Shown piece by piece: positions 6,072-34,872 of a DNA stretch of 35,165 nt. Numbering within the stretch: the first letter of the stretch is position 1; each line of letters opens with the position of its first letter. The DNA comes from Clostridiaceae bacterium (GTDB taxonomy: Bacteria; Bacillota; Clostridia; DSM-8532): positions 1 to 35,165 of the forward strand of contig JAAYAD010000039.1 in NCBI GenBank assembly GCA_012719545.1, written 5' to 3'. The notes beneath the pieces are model-generated. The model ran no database searches. It was not told the origin of the DNA and saw only the letters and a program-made list of their open reading frames with translations. A program made the translations under genes and the position numbers.

Positions 6072-6127
6072 GAAAAAGACTCTGTATGAAAAGCAAAGAT
6101 AAGCATGGCTTGTGCATGCTTAAAGAG

Positions 6128-6279
6128 CTCTGTCCTTTTGCCTGAGAGTGTCATCCAAATATCGGACTTGCCCCTTCGGCGCCTTCCATTAGGTCTCTCC
6201 AGAGGTCCGTCGGGCTAAGGTCTATTTACCTGAGAGATTTACTCCTTCGGTGTGCCGTAAAAGCCGCTCTCCCTTAGCC
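6128..6279 (-). promoter_or_regulatory. tandem glycine riboswitch upstream of serA
   Basis: Two consecutive glycine aptamers on the minus strand. Aptamer 1 (6279-6213) is closed by a perfect 8-base-pair P1, GGCTAAGG with CCTTAGCC, and contains CCGAAGGAG and CTCTCAGG. Aptamer 2 (6204-6128) is closed by CTCTG with CAGAG and holds the class hallmarks GCGCCGAAGGGGCAAG and ACTCTCAGGCAAAAGGACAG. A short linker joins them, as in the cooperative gcvT-type arrangement. Glycine riboswitches most often control glycine cleavage or glycine transport genes; here the element leads into serA and a LUD gene. Identity is firm from the conserved cores; the direction of control is not. Confidence 0.95.
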
Positions 6280-22222: not shown

Positions 22223-23998
22223 TCAATTATGCTTTGGTAACCGGACAATAAAATCGCTTCCCTCTCCCTCTTTGCTTTCTACCCGCACAGAACCGTCATA
22301 CAACTGTGCTATATGCTTTACAATTGAAAGCCCAAGACCGGTACCGCCCATTGCCCTTGACCTGCCTTTGTCAACCCTGTAGAACCTTTCAAATATGCGA
22401 TCGGTATGCTCCATGGGAATTCCTATGCCGGTGTCCCTGACATGTATCTCTATATGCTTTTCAAAGGATTCTGCCCAAATCTTTACAAGCCCTCCAGTCT
22501 TATTATATTTAATGGCATTATCCATTAAATTAATCATGAGCTGTTTAATTCGGTGGCGGTTAGCTTCAAGGATCATATCAGGCGAAATGTTTACTTCTAT
22601 TGTTACTCCTTTTTCGTTAGCTGCGTTGTGAAGCATTGACTCCACTTCATTTACCAGAGGCAGAAGTTCAACGCTCTGCCTTTCATTGTCCTTATTCATA
22701 TGCTCAATCTCGGACAGCTCCAGAATGTCGTTAATAAGGTTTCTCAGGCGTGTTGCCTCTATATCAATAATATCCAGGAACTTCTCGGCCACCTCATGTT
22801 CATGGAGAGCCCCGTTTTTAAGAGTCTCAACAAAGCCCTGTATGGAAGTTAAAGGTGTTTTAAGCTCATGGGTGACGTTTGAGACGAATTCGGCTCTCAT
22901 TTCATCGAACTTGCGCATCTGCGTAATGTCATTTATAAAGGCAAGAGCACCTGTGTTATGACCTTTATCCTCATCCTGATATATGGGTGAAACATGAACT
23001 GACAACTGCATGCGCCTTCCGCCATGATATACATGCATCTCTTCCTTAATGATTTTGTTTCCGGTTATGGCTTTGAGCAATAGTTCATTAATCTTCCTGT
23101 TTCTGATAACCTGCACCAAAGGAAGTCCTACCGGATTTGCAATTTCTGGTCCGCAAAAAATACGGACGGCAATAGGATTTATCATTAAAATCTGCATGCT
23201 TCTGTCAACTGCAATAAGGCCGTTGTTCATGCTGCTGATTATGGCATCAACCCTAGCATTTCTCTCCTTTAACTCCTTGATGACGTGTTCAATGGCATGG
23301 GTCATGCTGCTTAAGGTTAACGAAAGCTGACCCACTTCATCCTTAGGTCCAATACGGGTTATGCCATGGGGCTCGACGGTATTTCCGTATTCCTTGACAA
23401 GCCTGGCTAAAGGCTTTACAACATAGCCAGAAAACTTTAAGGCCATCAGGGAAGATATAATCATTGCGGCAAACACCGTTATGATGGCATAAAAAAGGAT
23501 GACATTGCGTATTTCATTGACATATTCCACCGATGTAGAAATACGCACCACCTTGTCTAGCTCTCCGGAATAATAGGCAAGATAAATTAACTGGATTCCT
23601 GTGGTTTCGCTTTTTCGGATGTTCACACCTATACCATCCATAAGAGCTTTCTTAACCTCTGGCCGGTCCAGGTGATTTTCCATTGTATTTGAAGGGGCTC
23701 TGGAATCCGCAAGAACATTTCCGTTTCTATTAATAATTGTGATACGTCTGTCCGACTCAGGGTACTGATCCTGGTCGCTTGTAGTCAAAAGCCCTGCCAG
23801 CTTTTTTAAATTGGCATCATTGATGCCCTCCTGCCCATACCCGCTTAAGATATGTGCTATAAGAACAGCATCATGTTTAAGACTGTTTTCAACCTCCCTT
23901 ATATAAACCTGGGAGGAATAGCGATAGGTAACAAGAGCCACAACAGACGAAACAATAACCGCAAGAACTATATAAAGAGCTACAATGCGCCGTCTCAT
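22223..23998 (-). CDS. phoR: PhoR-type membrane sensor histidine kinase
   Basis: A 591-residue sensor kinase, named PhoR from its architecture and neighbours. An N-terminal membrane helix (about 4-24) and a second (about 168-188) flank an extracytoplasmic sensor domain. A HAMP-like linker, a PAS domain (about 250-355, SMNNGLIAVDRSMQILMINP), the HisKA box FVSNVTHELKTPLTSI with His377, and the ATPase domain with N box LMINLMDNAIKYN and G boxes RDTGIGIP and GGTGLGLSIVKHI follow. The start is the ATG at 23998, 6 bases after AAAGG; a TTG seven codons earlier lacks a site. Unusually, it is separated from its likely partner phoP by cdaA-ybbR. It may share transcription with ybbR, 116 bases upstream. 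A different partner cannot be excluded. Confidence 0.85.
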   Translation of the reverse strand: MRRRIVALYIVLAVIVSSVVALVTYRYSSQVYIREVENSLKHDAVLIAHILSGYGQEGINDANLKKLAGLLTTSDQDQYPESDRRITIINRNGNVLADSRAPSNTMENHLDRPEVKKALMDGIGVNIRKSETTGIQLIYLAYYSGELDKVVRISTSVEYVNEIRNVILFYAIITVFAAMIISSLMALKFSGYVVKPLARLVKEYGNTVEPHGITRIGPKDEVGQLSLTLSSMTHAIEHVIKELKERNARVDAIISSMNNGLIAVDRSMQILMINPIAVRIFCGPEIANPVGLPLVQVIRNRKINELLLKAITGNKIIKEEMHVYHGGRRMQLSVHVSPIYQDEDKGHNTGALAFINDITQMRKFDEMRAEFVSNVTHELKTPLTSIQGFVETLKNGALHEHEVAEKFLDIIDIEATRLRNLINDILELSEIEHMNKDNERQSVELLPLVNEVESMLHNAANEKGVTIEVNISPDMILEANRHRIKQLMINLMDNAIKYNKTGGLVKIWAESFEKHIEIHVRDTGIGIPMEHTDRIFERFYRVDKGRSRAMGGTGLGLSIVKHIAQLYDGSVRVESKEGEGSDFIVRLPKHN

Positions 23999-24025
23999 AA
24001 ACAACCTTTCATGTATCAAATATAA

Positions 24026-24054
24026 ATGCCATGCTTATTTAAATAAGCAGGCAT
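24026..24054. repeat. AT-rich imperfect palindrome between ybbR and phoR
   Basis: TGCC-A-TGCTTATTT pairs with AAATAAGCAGGCA over 13 base pairs with one bulged base, centred on ATTTAAAT. It lies 28 bases upstream of the phoR start. There is no proper U-tract, so it is more likely a weak terminator, a processing hairpin or a protein site than a strong terminator. Confidence 0.4.
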
Positions 24055-24114
24055 ATATTCCATTAGTCAATGATATGCTCATTTAAGTATATAAAACACT
24101 ATTATAATTATATT

Positions 24115-25371
24115 TTACGGATTTGGGGTTGGTGTAGTGGATGTTTCAGTCGTAGTACTTTCTATGACTATTTCGACGGTATATTCCCCAACCAGAGTTA
24201 CATCAACTGGAAGCTTTACCATAAGCGGAATCTCGTGTCTTCCATCCTCAAAGCCGTTAACCTGGACAGATAATACTATATCCGTGGTTTTTACACCATT
24301 CACAGCTTCAGGTGTACCTTTAATAGTTATAGGAATTGGATCGTTGGTGACCCTGTAAACCCTAGTTCCTGACATATCGCTTCCATAGATGGATATCTGG
24401 CGTGCAGGCACATTAAAGGTGCGGGTAGCCAGCTTTTCTATAACTATTTCTGCTGTCAGCTGCTCTGCATCCGAATCCATTATTTTTGTATCATTAGGAG
24501 TTATCAAAGTAAGCGGCACCTGAAAAGTGGATGTTTTTCCTGTTATATCAACAGCTTCAGCATTAACTTTGGTTATCCCTTCCAACACGCTCTTTTTCCC
24601 AATCACCCTGATTCCGGGAAGAGAATAGCGTACTTCCTTAAGATAATAGTCATCGCCAGGTCTTCCCCGTGTTGCAGCCACCACAGGAACGCGTTTTGCC
24701 AAATCAAACCTGACTATTACAGGTATTTGCCCTTCAAATTGCCTTATTGGCTGCCCCTCGGCATCAAGAGCTATACCTCTCATAATTAATTCCCCGGTAT
24801 CTCCAATTTCATCCAGATTAACTTTTGCAACCACCTTATCTACTTTTGTAATGCTGCTTTCAAGCTCTTCAAGAACCACGTTGGCAGGCTCAACGGATAA
24901 ATTTACAAGTTCGTAGCCTGCCGGCAGCTTTCCTGTAAATTCAATATTCACAGGATACTGCTTTCCAATAATGCGTTCAAAGGTTAAGGTCACAGAGGAT
25001 GGATTGACAGCAGTTATAAATATGTCCTCATCTCCATGGTATTCGGGCATGTCTATATTAATGGTCCTGGTACCGGGAGATGTAATGCCCGATAAATCGA
25101 TGGATGCCTTAAAATCATTGGCGGTAACAGCCCTTACCTTGTTGCTTCGTCCCCTTATCTTTATATCCAGTGTCAATGGAAGGGTATTTCCCACCAGTTG
25201 AAGATTGTTCTGCCTTAAAACCTGAGCGTTATTTGACAGGGGTATGGAAAGGCTTCTTTCCTCAAACGGATTTTCTTTATCCAGAACAAGAAACCATATA
25301 AAAATGGCAATTAATACCGAGATAACTCTAATGACCGAATCTTTTTCAAACAAATCGTTAATTTTGCTCAT
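24115..25371 (-). CDS. YbbR-domain protein (CdaR-like), membrane anchored
   Basis: A 418-residue YbbR-family protein. One N-terminal membrane helix (about 13-30, VIRVISVLIAIFIWFLVL) is followed by repeated YbbR domains of about 80-90 residues; I can make out four, the repeats carrying patterns such as YPVNIEFTGKLPAGYEL and VPVVAATRGRPGDDYYL. The C-terminal tail is Thr/Pro-rich. In Bacillus and Listeria the YbbR protein next to cdaA binds and modulates the diadenylate cyclase at the membrane. The start overlaps the end of cdaA by 14 bases, so the two are translationally linked. The usual third gene, glmM, does not follow; phoR does. Confidence 0.92.
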   Translation of the reverse strand: MSKINDLFEKDSVIRVISVLIAIFIWFLVLDKENPFEERSLSIPLSNNAQVLRQNNLQLVGNTLPLTLDIKIRGRSNKVRAVTANDFKASIDLSGITSPGTRTINIDMPEYHGDEDIFITAVNPSSVTLTFERIIGKQYPVNIEFTGKLPAGYELVNLSVEPANVVLEELESSITKVDKVVAKVNLDEIGDTGELIMRGIALDAEGQPIRQFEGQIPVIVRFDLAKRVPVVAATRGRPGDDYYLKEVRYSLPGIRVIGKKSVLEGITKVNAEAVDITGKTSTFQVPLTLITPNDTKIMDSDAEQLTAEIVIEKLATRTFNVPARQISIYGSDMSGTRVYRVTNDPIPITIKGTPEAVNGVKTTDIVLSVQVNGFEDGRHEIPLMVKLPVDVTLVGEYTVEIVIESTTTETSTTPTPNP

Positions 25372-26236
25372 CCTGCTTCACCTTTCTGAAATAAAAAAGC
25401 TTTCGGTCGTTGTCGCTTTCCAACAGGAATTTGCTCAGGGCTTTTCTAAGCATATCGGGGGTAAGATTCCTTGTAAGTCCCCCGTTATGAGCGTAGGAGA
25501 TTTTCCCCGATTCTTCCGATACAACTACGGCTATTGCGTCCGATATCTCCGTGATTCCCAAAGCGGCACGGTGGCGGGTGCCAAGCTCTCGGCTCAATCC
25601 TGCATTCTGTGTCAAGGGAAGATAACACGCAGCAGCCTTTATGATATTTGAGCTTATTATAACAGCTCCGTCATGCAAGGGGGTTTTGGGTGTAAAAATA
25701 TTGCACAATAATTCGGATGAGAGGGCAGCATCCATTTTTGTGCCTGTGTTTACAATATCCCCTATCTTGGTCTCCCTTTCAATTATAATAAGTGCCCCCA
25801 CATAATCCTCTGAAAGCTTTGTGCAAGCCTTGACAATGGACTCTATTGATGAAATGGTTTTTAAACGCTCCTCATCATCCTTGCGCAGCATGAAATCCTT
25901 AAATCCGCTGCTTCCAAGCTTCTCAAGAGCTCTTCTCAATTCGGGCTGGAAAAGTACTATAAGACCGAAACCGAAAATCTGCAGTGCCCCCTGCAAAAGG
26001 AAGGCTATTGTTTTTAGCCCCATCATCTGGGATATCCTTGAGATGGCAAGAATCAAAACCAGGCCCTTTACAAGCTGAATGGCTCTGGTTTCACGAACCA
26101 ACTGGATAATTTTGTAAACGCCATAGGACACAAGGGATATCTCAATGAGCATTCTTAATATGTCCAATGGACCATCAAGACCAAAAAAGCTCATCATGTA
26201 GCTAAAAAAATCCTGGAAGGTTCCGTTATCAGGCAC
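25358..26236 (-). CDS. cdaA: diadenylate cyclase CdaA (GTG start)
   Basis: Makes cyclic di-AMP from two ATP. The 292-residue protein has three N-terminal membrane helices (about 25-45, 53-70, 76-98) and a DAC domain with the catalytic motifs DGA (189-191, in PLHDGAVIIS) and RHR (221-223, in GTRHRAALGITE). Both are intact, so it should be active. In Firmicutes c-di-AMP controls potassium and osmolyte uptake and wall homeostasis. The start is GTG, 8 bases after AAGGAG. It overlaps ybbR downstream and lies 177 bases downstream of phoP, with a possible promoter in the gap. The placement between phoP and phoR is unusual; the common context is cdaA-ybbR-glmM. Confidence 0.96.
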   Translation of the reverse strand: MPDNGTFQDFFSYMMSFFGLDGPLDILRMLIEISLVSYGVYKIIQLVRETRAIQLVKGLVLILAISRISQMMGLKTIAFLLQGALQIFGFGLIVLFQPELRRALEKLGSSGFKDFMLRKDDEERLKTISSIESIVKACTKLSEDYVGALIIIERETKIGDIVNTGTKMDAALSSELLCNIFTPKTPLHDGAVIISSNIIKAAACYLPLTQNAGLSRELGTRHRAALGITEISDAIAVVVSEESGKISYAHNGGLTRNLTPDMLRKALSKFLLESDNDRKLFYFRKVKQDEQN

Positions 26237-26278
26237 TGCACAAGCTCCTTAACAAAAATAGTCCTATCTATAAAGTAA

Positions 26279-26307
26279 ATTATATCCTTTTGTAAAATAT
26301 TTTTGTA
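26279..26307 (-). promoter_or_regulatory. possible promoter of cdaA-ybbR
   Basis: A perfect TATAAT on the minus strand (26284-26279) lies 42 bases before the cdaA start, but the -35 at 17 bases spacing (TACAAA) is poor. The phoP-cdaA gap has no strong terminator, so read-through from the pst-phoU-phoP transcript is equally possible. Confidence 0.35.
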
Positions 26308-26413
26308 TACAGTAATTTTGAATGTAATACAAATGCAATATATTTTTCTTAAATACTAAATTTCGTTTATCTTGCTTCTGCCTAAAAGGCTTTTTCAGCT
26401 TGCGCATCAGATT

Positions 26414-27109
26414 TTAAATAAACCGGTACCCTACTCCCCTGACAGTTTCTATATATTCGGGCTTGCTGTCATCATTTTCTATCTTCTGGCGTAAGTACCT
26501 TATATGCACATCAACCGTTCTGGTTTCCCCATAGTAGTCAAAGCCCCAGACCTTTTCCAGAAGCACTTCACGGGTCATTACCTTGCCCCGGTTCTGCATC
26601 AGTATTTTTAACAGTTCAAATTCCTTAAGGGTAAGATCCAGCTTTTGATCCCCCTTATATACTTCATGACGCTCAACATCTATTTTTATATCCCCTGCAG
26701 TCAAAACCTCAGGTTGTATCTCATAAGGCTTCTCGGAACGTCTGAACAGAGCCTTTACCCTGGCAACAAGTTCCCTTATTGAAAAAGGCTTCGTTATGTA
26801 GTCATCAGCTCCAAGTTCAAGACCCAGGACTCTATCAAACTCTTCGCTTTTAGCTGTCAGCATGATAACAGGAAGTTTGGAAAGCCTTGAATCCTTCCTT
26901 ATTTCTCCAAGTATTTCATAGCCATCCATATCCGGAAGCATGATATCCAGTATAAACATATCAGGAATTACCGTCTCGCAATGGGCAAGCATTTCCTCAC
27001 CGCTTGAAAAGGTGATGACACTGTAACCATTGGCCTCCAGATTATATTTTATAAGCTGTTGTATATGGCTTTCATCTTCCACAATATATATCGTCCGTTT
27101 TACAGACAT
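26414..27109 (-). CDS. phoP: PhoP-type response regulator (OmpR family)
   Basis: A 231-residue two-domain regulator. The receiver domain has the acidic pair in IYIVEDE, the phospho-accepting Asp55 (FILDIMLPDMDG), the Thr of MLTAKSE, and the conserved Lys in DDYITKPFS. The C-terminal winged helix is OmpR/PhoB type (LTLKEFELLKILMQNRGKVMTREVLLEKVWGFDYYGETRTVDVHIRYLR). It should switch on phosphate-starvation genes by binding Pho boxes, such as the one before pstS. The start is the ATG at 27109, 9 bases after AGGAG; the ATG three codons earlier abuts that site. It starts 12 bases after phoU, so it is part of the pst operon and could be autoregulated through it. Confidence 0.92.
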   Translation of the reverse strand: MSVKRTIYIVEDESHIQQLIKYNLEANGYSVITFSSGEEMLAHCETVIPDMFILDIMLPDMDGYEILGEIRKDSRLSKLPVIMLTAKSEEFDRVLGLELGADDYITKPFSIRELVARVKALFRRSEKPYEIQPEVLTAGDIKIDVERHEVYKGDQKLDLTLKEFELLKILMQNRGKVMTREVLLEKVWGFDYYGETRTVDVHIRYLRQKIENDDSKPEYIETVRGVGYRFI

Positions 27110-27121
27110 GGTAAACATCTC

Positions 27122-27808
27122 CTATTCATCTTTTTTCTCTAAATCCTTCCGATTATCAGGATGCTGCAAATGCCTGTGTTTTCCGGTTTCATTATATACT
27201 GCCCATTCACTTATGTTGGTGGCATGATCTCCAATCCGCTCAAGATATTTTACAATGAACATTATATCAATAAGGGGCTCCACCGACCCAGTTTCTGATT
27301 TTATCTGGCTTGCTATGTCCATGATAAGCACATTGAAAAAATTATCCACTTCATCATCATCCCTGCATACCTCTGTTGCCAGCTCCACATCCTGATTTAT
27401 AAAGGCATCAATGCTCCGCCCTACCATGTTTCTTGCCTTTTCAGCCATAAGGTATATGTCAGGATTAATTTTCACAGGCTTATCCTTTAGTCTTAAAATT
27501 AATTCAGAGATATCGGCTGAATGGTCCCCTATTCTTTCAAGGTCGGTAATCATTTTAAGTGTGGAACCTATAAATCTTAGGTCTCCCGCAAGGGGCTGCT
27601 GCAGAGCAAACAAACTCAGGCATTTCTTTTCAATCTTATTTTCAATGTTGTCTATATCGTTGTCACGCTCAATTACTTCCTGAGCAACTTCTACATCCAA
27701 TTCTCTCAAAGCGTATATGGTTTTGTCTACAGACTCTTCCACAAGTCCGCCCAATATTCCTATTTCGTTCTTTAATTCCTGTAAGCTTCTGTCAAGATTA
27801 TGCCTCAT
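27122..27808 (-). CDS. phoU: phosphate uptake and signalling regulator PhoU
   Basis: A 228-residue protein of two tandem three-helix PhoU repeats. Metal-binding acidic runs are visible in each: ERDNDIDNIENKIE in the first and CRDDDEVDNFFNVLI in the second. PhoU links the Pst transporter to the sensor kinase and dampens the Pho response when phosphate is plentiful. The ATG at 27808 is chosen because AAAGG lies 9 bases before it; the ATG three codons upstream overlaps that site. It follows pstB after a 93-base gap with no clear promoter or terminator, and phoP follows 12 bases on. Confidence 0.94.
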   Translation of the reverse strand: MRHNLDRSLQELKNEIGILGGLVEESVDKTIYALRELDVEVAQEVIERDNDIDNIENKIEKKCLSLFALQQPLAGDLRFIGSTLKMITDLERIGDHSADISELILRLKDKPVKINPDIYLMAEKARNMVGRSIDAFINQDVELATEVCRDDDEVDNFFNVLIMDIASQIKSETGSVEPLIDIMFIVKYLERIGDHATNISEWAVYNETGKHRHLQHPDNRKDLEKKDE

Positions 27809-27901
27809 AATTCCCATCCTTTCATAAATATTGGGTGGGAGTCAGGACAATAGTTTATTTGCCATGCTTAATTTTTACCTATAAAAATGGCTTTAAAACA
27901 A

Positions 27902-28660
27902 TTATCCGAATCTCCCCGTAATATATCTTTCAGTTCTCTCATCCTTAGGCTTGTTAAATATCTGCTCGGTGGAGTTATACTCAACCAGTTCGCCCAAAAG
28001 GAAGAATGCTGTTTTGTCAGAAATACGTCCTGCCTGCTGCATGTTATGGGTAACTATTACTATGGTGTATTTCTTTTTCAGTTCCTCGCACAAATCCTCT
28101 ATTTTGGACGTGGATATAGGATCCAGAGCAGATGTCGGTTCATCCATTAAAATTACCTCAGGCTCTGTTGCCAGGGTTCGGGCGATGCAGAGCCTCTGCT
28201 GCTGTCCTCCCGATATCCCCAATGCGCTTTTATTGAGCCTGTCTTTAACTTCATCCCAAAGAGCTGCCGCCTTTAGGCTATCTTCCACAATCTCATCCAG
28301 AACGGCTTTTTTCCTTATGCCGTGAATCCTCGGCCCATAGGCGACGTTATCGTATATAGACATGGGAAAAGGATTTGGCTTCTGAAATACCATGCCCACC
28401 TTTTTCCTTAGCTCCACCACATCTATGTTTCCTAATATTTCGTTGCCGTCAAGCTTAATGCTTCCTTCAATATGTACGTTTTCAATCAAATCATTCATCC
28501 TGTTGAGGGTCTTTAAAAAGGTTGATTTTCCGCAGCCAGAAGGGCCTATTAAAGCTGTTATTTCACCCTCGTATATTTGCATATTTATATTTTTCAGGGC
28601 ATAGAAAGTCCCATAATGAAGATTAAGATTCTTAACATCTATTTTTACTTTCTTTTTCAT
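27902..28660 (-). CDS. pstB: phosphate ABC transporter ATP-binding protein
   Basis: ATPase subunit of the high-affinity phosphate importer. The 252-residue length is standard. Walker A is GPSGCGKST, followed by the PstB-typical [12 protein letters not shown]. The Q-loop is [21 protein letters not shown], the ABC signature [16 protein letters not shown], Walker [14 protein letters not shown], and the switch His is in [14 protein letters not shown]. The start is the ATG at 28660, 9 bases after AAAGG. It is 21 bases downstream of pstA and in the same operon. Confidence 0.97.
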
Positions 28661-28681
28661 AGTTATCATCCTTTTGACTAA

Positions 28682-29548
28682 TCAGATTGTTGGTCCCAAG
28701 CCTTTTGTTCTGCCGTTTATAAACCTTCTTGTAAGCCTGTTGGCCGCAAAATTCAGCGCGGCGATAATAATCATCAGAATTGTGCCTGTGGCAAATGCGC
28801 TCACAAAGTCAGCCTCCTCAAGGGCGACCATGTAAAGGTGTACCGACAAGGTTCTTACGCTGCTTGTTAACAGCTTGTCAAAAGCTGGAATTCTTGCCAC
28901 CGATCCCACCGTATATATGACCGCGGCAGTCTCCCCTATTACGCGCCCCATACTTAAGATTACCGCAGTAAGGATTCCAGGCATGGCACTGGGAAGCACA
29001 ACCTTAAAAATTGTCTGAAGTCTTGTAGCTCCCAGGGCAAGACTTCCTTCACGGTAACCCGGATCAACTGATAAAAGGGCTTCCTCAGTTGTTCTTACAA
29101 TTATGGGAAGAACCATGATACTTAAAGTGAGAGCTCCCGACATTACTGAGAATCCCAGGTTGAGAGTGTTTTTAAAGAATATATATCCAAAAAGGCCGTA
29201 AATAATGGAAGGTATACCGGCAAGGCTTTCGGTGCCAAACCTTATAATTTTTACAAATAAGCCCTGTTTTGCATATTCGGTAAGGTAAATGGCGGCAAAA
29301 ACTCCCACCGGAACCGCAATTATTATGGTTGTGAAAATTAAAAGGAGAGTTCCCACAATCATGGGGAGAATGCCTGTCTCACCCTTATACAGATTATAAT
29401 TGCCTGTAATAAACTCCCAGCTGATTCCTGAAATTCCTCTGGATACTATGTATATAACCATCCCCGCCAGAAAGCCTACGGTAATAAGGGAGAACAGCCA
29501 TATTAAAACTTTCAGAATCAAATCGGTTAATTTTCGTCTTTTGCTCAA
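28682..29548 (-). CDS. pstA: phosphate ABC transporter permease PstA (TTG start)
   Basis: Membrane subunit of the phosphate importer; 288 residues with about six membrane helices. The first (about 12-34) follows a basic N-terminus. The BPD-type coupling loop EGSLALGATRLQTIFKVVLPSAMPGILTA (about 165-195) contacts PstB. AGIPSIIYGLFGYIFF is characteristic of the PstA/PstC pair. The start is a TTG, 7 bases after a GGGGGG run, and lies 13 bases from pstC. An ATG close by is in another frame. It pairs with PstC to form the channel. Confidence 0.95.
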   Translation of the reverse strand: MSKRRKLTDLILKVLIWLFSLITVGFLAGMVIYIVSRGISGISWEFITGNYNLYKGETGILPMIVGTLLLIFTTIIIAVPVGVFAAIYLTEYAKQGLFVKIIRFGTESLAGIPSIIYGLFGYIFFKNTLNLGFSVMSGALTLSIMVLPIIVRTTEEALLSVDPGYREGSLALGATRLQTIFKVVLPSAMPGILTAVILSMGRVIGETAAVIYTVGSVARIPAFDKLLTSSVRTLSVHLYMVALEEADFVSAFATGTILMIIIAALNFAANRLTRRFINGRTKGLGPTI

Positions 29549-29561
29549 TCCTCATCCCCCC

Positions 29562-30455
29562 TTATTTCCTGTCCAGAGATTTTCTTACAACAAAGTTTAG
29601 AATAAGGTTCAGAAAAATAATAAATACAAACAGGACTACTCCTATGCCAAAGAGAACCGACTGGTGAAAGGGTCCTGCATAGGACATATCCTTGGCAATT
29701 GTTGCCGTCATGGGACTTACGGTATCCAAAAGGGATTTTGGCATATTGGGTATGTTTCCGCAAACCATAATTACCGCCATAGTCTCCCCTATGGCACGTC
29801 CCATGCCCAGAACCACAGATGACAAAATTCCTGACTTTGCGGCAGGAACCATAACCTTGAACACAGTTTCCATTTTGGATGCACCCAAAGCAAGGGAGCC
29901 TTCCTTGTATTCCTTTGGCACAGCCCTTAAAGCTGTTTCAGATATGTTTACAATGGTTGGAAGAACCATAACAGAAAGTATAATTATCATGGCCAGAAGG
30001 CCTGTTCCTGTGGGACTTTTAAAATGTGTCCTTATAAAGGGAACTATCACTGTAAGGCCGAAAAAACCGTACACAACTGAAGGAATTCCTGCCAGAAGCT
30101 CAATTGCCGCCTTTAATAGCCCGTATATCCTTTTTGGCGCCATCTCAGCAAGCATAATTGCCGTAAATATGCCAATGGGCACACCCACAATTATTGCGCC
30201 AAGCATTCCAAAAAGGGATGCCAAAATCATGGGAAGTATTCCATAGCTTGGCTCCTTGAATGTAGGAGCCCACCTGGTTCCAAATAAAAAATTGGATATT
30301 CCTATTTTCAGTATTGGCGGAACACCTTCAATGAAAATGTAAAAGCATATTACTGCAACTGAAATAATCATCATGAAAGCAGATAATGCAAAAATAAGCT
30401 CTATAGCTTTTTCATATGTAAACTTGCGCTTGTTCCCTGATATGCAGCCATTCAT
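29562..30455 (-). CDS. pstC: phosphate ABC transporter permease PstC
   Basis: The other membrane subunit of the phosphate importer; 297 residues and six predicted helices, the first at about 19-42. It has the Pst permease block LLAGIPSVVYGFFGLTVIVPF and the coupling loop EGSLALGASKMETVFKVMVPAAKSGILSSVVLGMGRAIGETMAV. That PstC precedes PstA is the usual order and matches the longer cytoplasmic N-terminus seen here. CGGAG precedes the ATG at normal spacing. It follows pstS after a 73-base gap containing a stable hairpin. Confidence 0.95.
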   Translation of the reverse strand: MNGCISGNKRKFTYEKAIELIFALSAFMMIISVAVICFYIFIEGVPPILKIGISNFLFGTRWAPTFKEPSYGILPMILASLFGMLGAIIVGVPIGIFTAIMLAEMAPKRIYGLLKAAIELLAGIPSVVYGFFGLTVIVPFIRTHFKSPTGTGLLAMIIILSVMVLPTIVNISETALRAVPKEYKEGSLALGASKMETVFKVMVPAAKSGILSSVVLGMGRAIGETMAVIMVCGNIPNMPKSLLDTVSPMTATIAKDMSYAGPFHQSVLFGIGVVLFVFIIFLNLILNFVVRKSLDRK

Positions 30456-30486: not shown

Positions 30487-30515
30487 CAGGCAGACCTGTG
30501 AAAAAGGTCTGCCTG
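30487..30515 (-). terminator. pstS-pstC intercistronic hairpin (partial terminator or stabiliser)
   Basis: A 10-base-pair, GC-rich perfect stem, CAGGCAGACC with GGTCTGCCTG, and a 9-base loop, 14 bases after the pstS stop. On the minus strand it is followed by CCTTTGCTTTT, a broken U-tract. This suggests partial termination and/or protection of the pstS mRNA end, which would give more binding protein than permease. Confidence 0.6.
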
Positions 30516-30528
30516 GCATTAATTCAAA

Positions 30529-31410
30529 TTATTTTTCTACAGGTATTGCTTCTTTTGAAATAATTTCTTTTCCTTCATCTGAGAAGATAAAGTCTATAAA
30601 TGCTTGTTCCAAAGCATCAGGCTTACCTTTTGTCACTATATTAAAGGGTCGCTTAACAGTATATGTGCCGTTTATTACATTATCAACTTCAGCCTGTACT
30701 CCATCAATGGCGAGAGCCTTGACAGTATTGTCTGTATAGGCAAGAGAGATGTATCCTATTGCGTTAGGGTTCTGGGAAATAATTGTTTTGACTTCTCCGG
30801 TCTTGGCAGCTTCCTGATCTGCCTTAACCTGTTCTGTTACATCAAAGAGGGTTTCAAAGGCTTCTCTGGTGCCGGAGGCGGCATCCCTTGCCACTACCAC
30901 TATGGGCGCATCGGCTCCGCCCACTTCCTTCCAGTTGGTGATTTCCTTCTTATATATTTTTGCTATCTGTTCCCTTGTAAGATTCCCAACCTGGTTTTGG
31001 TTGTTTACAATAACAGCTATGGCATCTTCGGCAATTTTAATAACCTCAATACCCTGGCTCAATTCTTCAGCCTTGACTTCTCTTGAAGAAGTTCCGATAT
31101 TGGCAGTGCCGTCGATTGCTGCCTTTATGCCGGCGCTTGAGCCGTCGCCAATGTATTCAATTGTTACCTTAGGATTTTTTGCAGTATATGTGTCGATAAG
31201 CTCCTGGAATATCTTCTGCATTGATGTTGATCCTTCAATCAACAACTTGCCGGAAAGTACCGGGCCAGAAACTTCAGTATCGTCCGAAACATTTTCATTC
31301 TTGTTTGAATTATCATACGGATTGGTTTCCGGTTTATTATCGTTCTGACATGCTGAAAAAGTAAAGACTACAGCTACTAATATAACAAGTGCCAATATTT
31401 TTTTTACCAT
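30529..31410 (-). CDS. pstS: phosphate-binding lipoprotein PstS
   Basis: High-affinity phosphate-binding component of the Pst importer, anchored outside the membrane by a lipid. The signal peptide MVKKILALVILVAVVFTFSAC has its lipobox Cys at 21, followed by a low-complexity Asn/Glu/Asp linker. The mature protein has the phosphate-site segments GSTSMQKIFQEL, GDGSSAGIKAA, TSSREVK and VVARDAASGTREAFE. The ATG at 31410 is preceded by AAAGGAG at 10 bases and gives a clean signal peptide; an upstream TTG at 31443 would add 11 charged residues before it. At 293 residues it is a normal length. It is the first gene of the pst-phoU-phoP unit behind a Pho box. Confidence 0.95.
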   Translation of the reverse strand: MVKKILALVILVAVVFTFSACQNDNKPETNPYDNSNKNENVSDDTEVSGPVLSGKLLIEGSTSMQKIFQELIDTYTAKNPKVTIEYIGDGSSAGIKAAIDGTANIGTSSREVKAEELSQGIEVIKIAEDAIAVIVNNQNQVGNLTREQIAKIYKKEITNWKEVGGADAPIVVVARDAASGTREAFETLFDVTEQVKADQEAAKTGEVKTIISQNPNAIGYISLAYTDNTVKALAIDGVQAEVDNVINGTYTVKRPFNIVTKGKPDALEQAFIDFIFSDEGKEIISKEAIPVEK

Positions 31411-31463: not shown

Positions 31464-31501
31464 ATTATGAGAAAATCATAGAAAGGTTAAACCAATGTTA
31501 A
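31464..31501 (-). promoter_or_regulatory. Pho box and promoter of the pst operon
   Basis: On the minus strand TTAACA-TTGGT-TTAACC (31501-31485) places two TTAACA-like hexamers exactly 11 bases apart, the spacing and sequence of Bacillus PhoP boxes. The second overlaps a -35-like TTTAAC, and CATAAT (31469-31464) follows after 16 bases as a -10. This is the layout of a PhoP-activated promoter. It begins only 3 bases after the end of holA. Confidence 0.7.
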
Positions 31502-34610: not shown

Positions 34611-34641
34611 AAAAAAACTCCCATCCGTTCAAGGATGAGAG
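34611..34641 (-). terminator. T-box leader terminator of thrS
   Basis: On the minus strand CTCTCATCC pairs with GGATGGGAG (9 base pairs, one wobble, loop TTGAAC), followed by seven T residues (34617-34611). It is the default-off structure of the T-box; the alternative antiterminator would use the T-box sequence just upstream. Confidence 0.9.
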
Positions 34642-34872
34642 CATAACGCCCACATGGTTCCACCTTGATTACAGGAATAAATTTGAAATATTCCTGTCAC
34701 TCAATGGGATTATAACGGAATCACCGTGAAGACATACTAAAACTTTCCGCCTTCAAGCTCCGGGGTGGTACAAAAATTATGTCGCATAGAAAGGCTTTCA
34801 GCCGCTGACCTTTCCTCTCTTTATGCTCCGGGTAATTTTTGCTTGTCCCCTTCATGGCTATTATCAATATTA
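34611..34872 (-). promoter_or_regulatory. T-box riboswitch controlling thrS
   Basis: A leader of about 260 bases with the T-box core AAGGTGGAACCATG at 34666-34653 and a terminator beyond it. UGGA in the core would pair with an NCCA end whose discriminator base is U, as in bacterial tRNA-Thr. Stem I includes GACAAG, the arm pair CAAAAATTA/TAATTTTTG (34841-34833 with 34779-34771), AGAGAGG, and the apical GCGGCTGAAAGCC. The internal loop above a GGGG/CCCC stem holds ACC (34769-34767), a threonine codon followed by a purine, the probable specifier. Uncharged tRNA-Thr should permit read-through into thrS. Confidence 0.92.

Follow-up and report, generated by a model that had tools for sequence, protein, structure and literature searches.

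Why should cdaA and ybbR, the genes for c-di-AMP synthesis, lie between the two genes of a predicted phosphate two-component system? CdaA is often the sole source of c-di-AMP in Firmicutes, and its tuning beyond the complex with GlmM and YbbR is poorly known. We examined this question in a 35,165-nucleotide stretch of DNA from a Clostridiaceae bacterium (contig JAAYAD010000039.1), hereafter the window. In the dacA/cdaA-ybbR-glmM operon of Firmicutes, cdaA and ybbR are adjacent and cdaA encodes the housekeeping cyclase (PMC6368335, PMC8573169). The window genes are likewise adjacent, on the same strand, and overlap by 14 nt. However, glmM does not follow them; it is on another contig (G000:C15:2589-3911), and phoP and phoR flank the pair. 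The source genome comprises 2.95 Mb in 102 contigs and is 99.99% complete.

Open reading frames and family models bear out the order phoU-phoP-cdaA-ybbR-phoR described in an earlier note on this DNA. All genes are on the minus strand and adjoin pstSCAB, giving pstS-pstC-pstA-pstB-phoU-phoP-cdaA-ybbR-phoR:

31485-31501, minus strand: PhoP-box-like direct repeat TTAACA-N5-TTAACC upstream of pstS, also found in G004 and G011
30529-31410, minus strand: pstS, phosphate-binding lipoprotein (TIGR02136, 225.6 bits)
30487-30515, minus strand: strong stem-loop of 11 pairs, 3' of pstS (z -4.40)
29562-30455, minus strand: pstC (TIGR02138)
28682-29548, minus strand: pstA (TIGR00974)
27902-28669, minus strand: pstB (TIGR00972)
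27122-27817, minus strand: phoU (TIGR02135, 212.5 bits)
26414-27109, minus strand: phoP, OmpR/PhoB-class response regulator (PF00072 and PF00486, orthologue alignment)
25358-26236, minus strand: cdaA, membrane diadenylate cyclase (TIGR00159)
24115-25371, minus strand: ybbR, also called cdaR (PF07949)
22223-23998, minus strand: phoR, sensor kinase with a PAS domain, PnpS/PhoR type (PF00512, PF02518, NF046044, alignment)

Several starts were revised. For pstS, ATG 31410 was preferred to the first-listed 31443, having the better ribosome site and signal peptide. The phoP start was set to 27109, which fits the orthologues and leaves 12 nt after phoU. The start of cdaA is GTG 26236, preceded by AAGGAG. 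Orthologue alignment placed the phoR start at ATG 23998 rather than TTG 24019. The stem-loop between pstS and pstC is likely an attenuator, mRNA-end or differential-expression element within the pst operon.

As in clostridial pst-phoU-phoPR operons, pstSCAB-phoU-phoP are in order behind the PhoP-box-like repeat at pstS. Unlike those operons, phoP and phoR are split by cdaA-ybbR. Assignment of the split pair rests on an OmpR/PhoB-class regulator and a PAS-type kinase adjoining pst-phoU; the response to phosphate is predicted. For phoR the best NCBIfam model is PnpS (NF046044), at 395 bits just below its cut-off of 400, and the NCBIfam PhoB and PhoR models score under their cut-offs. Elsewhere in the genome (G000:C43) there is a WalRK-like pair accompanied by a YycI-family gene. 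Hence, the window genes are not a misread walRK.

CdaA has an N-terminal membrane part and a DAC domain with the DGA (189-191) and RHR (221-223) motifs, which are invariant. It scores 260 bits against the cut-off of 189 for TIGR00159 and 149.9 bits for PF02457; the CdaA_N model falls slightly under its cut-off. The protein matches a solved diadenylate cyclase over near its full length and, judging from the motifs, should make c-di-AMP. Its gene is the only one in the genome with a DAC domain. No c-di-AMP riboswitch was found near the operon; riboswitch matches in the window were a T-box leader upstream of thrS (34628-34864, minus strand) and a glycine riboswitch aptamer (6120-6212, minus strand). 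In B. subtilis CdaA, Arg126 contacts GlmM; the sequence aligned here agrees with the solved chain around this residue. By contrast, Asp, Glu, Gln or Asn occupies the position throughout the family of the window genome, and Arg or Lys is present in only 22 of 82 other aligned CdaA proteins. We considered whether unlinking of glmM had removed the contact residue. The idea was dropped, as neither clade of the family has Arg126 and most Clostridia outside it also lack the residue; its absence thus does not track the rearrangement.

The earlier note regarded the gene order as unusual and proposed a survey of clostridial genomes. The comparison covered the cdaA regions of 55 further genomes and of 80 named loci, two sets that overlap. 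Loci were assigned to the family by record for Thermoclostridium caenicola (L111) and otherwise by group codes and matching contigs. The order phoP-cdaA-ybbR-phoR occurs in the window genome and in G004, G010, G011 and G015, amounting to five species in two genera (G015 represents the other genus). These species are represented by metagenome-assembled genomes and have no isolates. In G009 the contig ends after phoP-cdaA-ybbR. A single-strain peculiarity or assembly error is ruled out, as contigs of five further species from separate assembly projects agree (that of G009 as far as ybbR). Adjacent phoP and phoR were found in all 24 comparison loci, comprising 19 from other Clostridia and five divergent phoPR copies of the family. 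Hence, the split in the window is derived.

The pho-linked loci differ in detail. A FAD-dependent oxidoreductase gene (PF21688) separates ybbR from phoR in G004, G011 and G015, where this chain of genes overlaps or is spaced by no more than 13 nt. The window and G010 have no such gene, and in G010 the gap between ybbR and phoR is 24 nt. Genome G010 (99% complete) keeps phoP-cdaA-ybbR-phoR (L036:7478-12266); pstA, pstC and a stand-alone phoU were not found in it. Oxidoreductase genes of this type were located at L050:5317-6897, L033:8867-10636 and L082:2179-3918. Many Clostridia have such a gene with cdaA-ybbR; the window lacks it at this spot.

Other family members show different neighbourhoods. 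Other species of the window's genus have thrS-holA-cdaA-ybbR at the same spot, with no pho genes. The genus of T. caenicola, a species in culture as DSM 19027, has thrS-holA-pstB-cdaA-ybbR, and pstSCA lies beyond thrS in the divergent orientation. Thus, in L111, L108, L109, L112 and L145, pstSCA and pstB flank thrS-holA and pstB adjoins cdaA. A sister clade has a distinct run: cdaA-ybbR, then genes for a Na/Pi cotransporter (nptA), a Pit transporter (pit) and a PhoU-like protein (DUF47), then glmM. The nptA, pit and PhoU-like genes form an operon-like run at L061:10609-14134 (G020), with matching loci L068, L071, L073 and L083. G018 and G023 have the cotransporter only, G017 has the Pit gene only (on a short contig), and some contigs end early. 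Linkage of cdaA to phosphate genes was seen in 10 of 10 sister-clade species. Beyond the family, glmM comes after cdaA-ybbR, and the FAD oxidoreductase gene often intervenes. None of about 80 outside loci, some of them duplicates, has phosphate genes within 6 kb of cdaA; the one match among 81 loci labelled as outside, L145, was reassigned to the family by identity and layout. In the literature searched, which covered few subscription journals, neither the cdaA-phoPR nor the sister-clade arrangement is described, and we found no phosphate response of cdaA or c-di-AMP.

In a tree of CdaA and YbbR the family forms two clades: the nptA/pit clade, with 10 species, and another with 19. In the larger clade, the first lineage to branch off (G015) carries the pho order, which recurs here and there among the other members. 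This distribution points to an arrangement ancestral to the clade, most simply explained by a single origin followed by at least three losses. As G015 sits on a long branch, with support of 93/86, the depth of this origin is less sure than the spread within the window's genus. One of the losses also left a trace. In four pho-less relatives (G001, G002, G006 and G012), DNA after holA begins with a pstS promoter and a partial TTAACA-N5-TTAAC repeat, the relic of the PhoP box at pstS, running into the cdaA promoter. These relics are deletion scars. On this comparative evidence, the gene order noted earlier is an old, family-level arrangement, which is more than had been claimed for it.

The earlier note proposed that a transcript running through from phoP would raise c-di-AMP synthesis in phosphate starvation. 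As that note supposed, no strong terminator separates phoP from cdaA. The 177-nt gap (26237-26413) contained no terminator-like site in a scan of the minus strand and folds no better than shuffled sequence. Hence, Pho read-through into cdaA is possible. The 116-nt gap between ybbR and phoR holds the AT-rich palindrome reported before. A role for the palindrome as terminator was ruled out: it has no T-run, the scan predicts no terminator, and many shuffled sequences fold as well as the gap does (z -1.58). The same note held that a strong start site in the phoP-cdaA gap, with no read-through, would count against its proposal. A conserved predicted promoter that it had missed lies there, directly before cdaA, and comes close to that situation. 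The relevant elements are:

26321-26338, minus strand: 11-bp direct repeat TTGCAT-N5-TTACAT, a response-regulator-type box, conserved at a fixed distance
26279-26309, minus strand: cdaA promoter, with TATAAT at 26279-26284 and a -35 of TATACA at 26304-26309 or TACAAA at 26302-26307 (17-nt spacer)
24028-24052: AT-rich palindrome in the ybbR-phoR gap

The -35 of the cdaA promoter is weak. The direct repeat lies exactly 54 nt upstream of TATAAT. It is the sole exact match to its pattern in the 2.95-Mb genome and is unlikely by chance in this gap (Markov p about 0.0005). A spacing of 53-54 nt is kept in pho-linked, T. caenicola-type and glmM-linked sister-clade loci. The repeat was found in G009, G010, G004 (one mismatch) and five genomes of the T. 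caenicola type; six of eight sister-clade loci inspected have it exactly or with one mismatch. It is also kept in genus-7 species without cdaA-linked phoPR. Conversely, G011 has the full phoP-cdaA-ybbR-phoR order, yet the box is absent at the usual place. Eight genus-1 species without pho genes at the cdaA locus no longer have it; in seven of these, TTGCA is now placed as an ordinary -35 element, at a spacing of 17 nt from TATAAT. A conserved predicted promoter thus belongs to cdaA itself, in species with and without pho genes nearby, and the gene need not rely on the Pho transcript.

On balance, we favour the following explanation, which as a whole we hold with moderate confidence. An ancestor that gave rise to one branch of the Thermoclostridium family would have had a pst-phoU-phoP-phoR operon after thrS-holA, and this operon would have taken in a housekeeping c-di-AMP cassette. 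This cassette, cdaA-ybbR with the FAD-dependent oxidoreductase gene, would have brought its own promoter and become lodged between phoP and phoR. The one pointer to this direction, rather than pho genes gathering around the cassette, is phoP-phoR adjacency elsewhere. Most likely, cdaA now runs mainly from its own promoter with the PhoP/WalR-type box. The phoP gene would probably be on the phosphate-regulated pst-phoU-phoP transcript and phoR on the cdaA transcript, tying the amount of the phosphate sensor kinase to the c-di-AMP operon. Overlaps, or gaps of no more than 24 nt, along cdaA-ybbR-(FAD oxidoreductase)-phoR in relatives suggest transcription of phoR from the cdaA promoter. In the window, phoR may have its own start within the palindrome-bearing gap. 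Read-through from the PhoP-boxed pst promoter in phosphate starvation could add a cdaA-ybbR-phoR transcript, which would give phoR positive feedback and increase c-di-AMP synthesis; this is the least certain step. The read-through mechanism is retained as one of several possible readings. Its route stands in the lack of a visible terminator, but the conserved promoter directly before cdaA weakens the case for it.

Which regulator binds the box is a separate question from which transcripts carry cdaA and phoR, so our confidence in this explanation and in its alternatives overlaps. PHO boxes comprise a pair of 11-nt repeats that have a 7-nt core (PMC4415409). The cdaA box, a perfect 11-bp direct repeat, has this architecture and a fixed distance from TATAAT. 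Were phosphorylated PhoP to bind 26321-26338 and activate cdaA, the gene would be a true member of the Pho regulon and c-di-AMP would rise in phosphate starvation. Loss of the box in the eight genus-1 species that lack cdaA-linked phoP and phoR fits this idea, as does the conversion of TTGCA to a -35. However, pstS has a different repeat, TTAACA-N5-TTAAC. The cdaA box also persists in the genus-7 species, and in sister-clade genomes where neither pst nor phoR of the window type was found (exactly in G016; with one mismatch in G014 and G025). This argues, weakly since a divergent regulator could escape the search, against PhoP as the only binder. Hence, we dropped TTGCA-N6-TTACA as proof of Pho control, and consider direct regulon membership improbable. 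A site for WalR (YycF) also seems unlikely, if less so. Here, cdaA would be under cell-envelope control and its position in the Pho operon would have no direct regulatory meaning. On the opposite strand the box reads TGTAAT-N5-TGCAAT, which departs at a single position from the WalR consensus TGTWAH-N5-TGTWAH (PMC9210968), and its location is conserved. The genome has its separate WalRK-like pair and YycI-family gene, and the box is independent of the presence or proximity of phoPR. Against this, one mismatch to the consensus is common by chance and the eight genus-1 species have lost the box. Near matches elsewhere were also considered as markers of a cell-wall regulon; the 20 of 53 inspected showed no clear pattern and were not clearly before cell-wall hydrolase genes.

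The arrangement might instead have no functional meaning. Neutral shuffling would have placed the cassette, with its own promoter, in the pho operon by chance; pho genes would then have been lost repeatedly with c-di-AMP unaffected. Conservation indicates that the cdaA promoter works without pho genes, and eight genus-1 species kept thrS-holA-cdaA-ybbR while losing the pho genes there. However, G010 kept phoP and phoR around cdaA-ybbR though pstA, pstC and a stand-alone phoU were not found. Moreover, chance would have to account for the second cdaA-phosphate linkage, universal in the sister-clade species sampled and absent from the outside loci. We regard shuffling as a possibility to be taken seriously, albeit short of probable.

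The sister clade has the same cassette in the same family, again adjoined by phosphate genes. There, the Na/Pi cotransporter, Pit and PhoU-like genes replace Pst and PhoPR, and linkage to glmM is retained. This different linkage suggests, and is the best reason to take seriously, a functional connection. The earlier idea that two signalling systems are joined thus gains from the sister clade, but loses in that cdaA may be expressed independently of the Pho transcript. Tentatively, c-di-AMP synthesis and phosphate homeostasis in this family could be one circuit, built twice: with PstSCAB-PhoU-PhoPR and with NptA, Pit and the PhoU-like protein. Phosphate limitation would then alter cdaA output via PhoP, via read-through or via the level of PhoR made from the cdaA promoter.

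Placement of cdaA-ybbR in or beside phosphate genes suggests a link between the c-di-AMP and phosphate systems of this family of anaerobic, mostly uncultured bacteria. The locus is a clear example of a two-component pair that may be divided over two transcripts. With the only cyclase inside a phosphate operon, and the transporters of the sister clade in the cdaA-glmM operon, phosphate becomes a candidate for an input to, or an output of, c-di-AMP signalling. The lineage comprises relatives of cultured Thermoclostridium species, in which the link can be tested.
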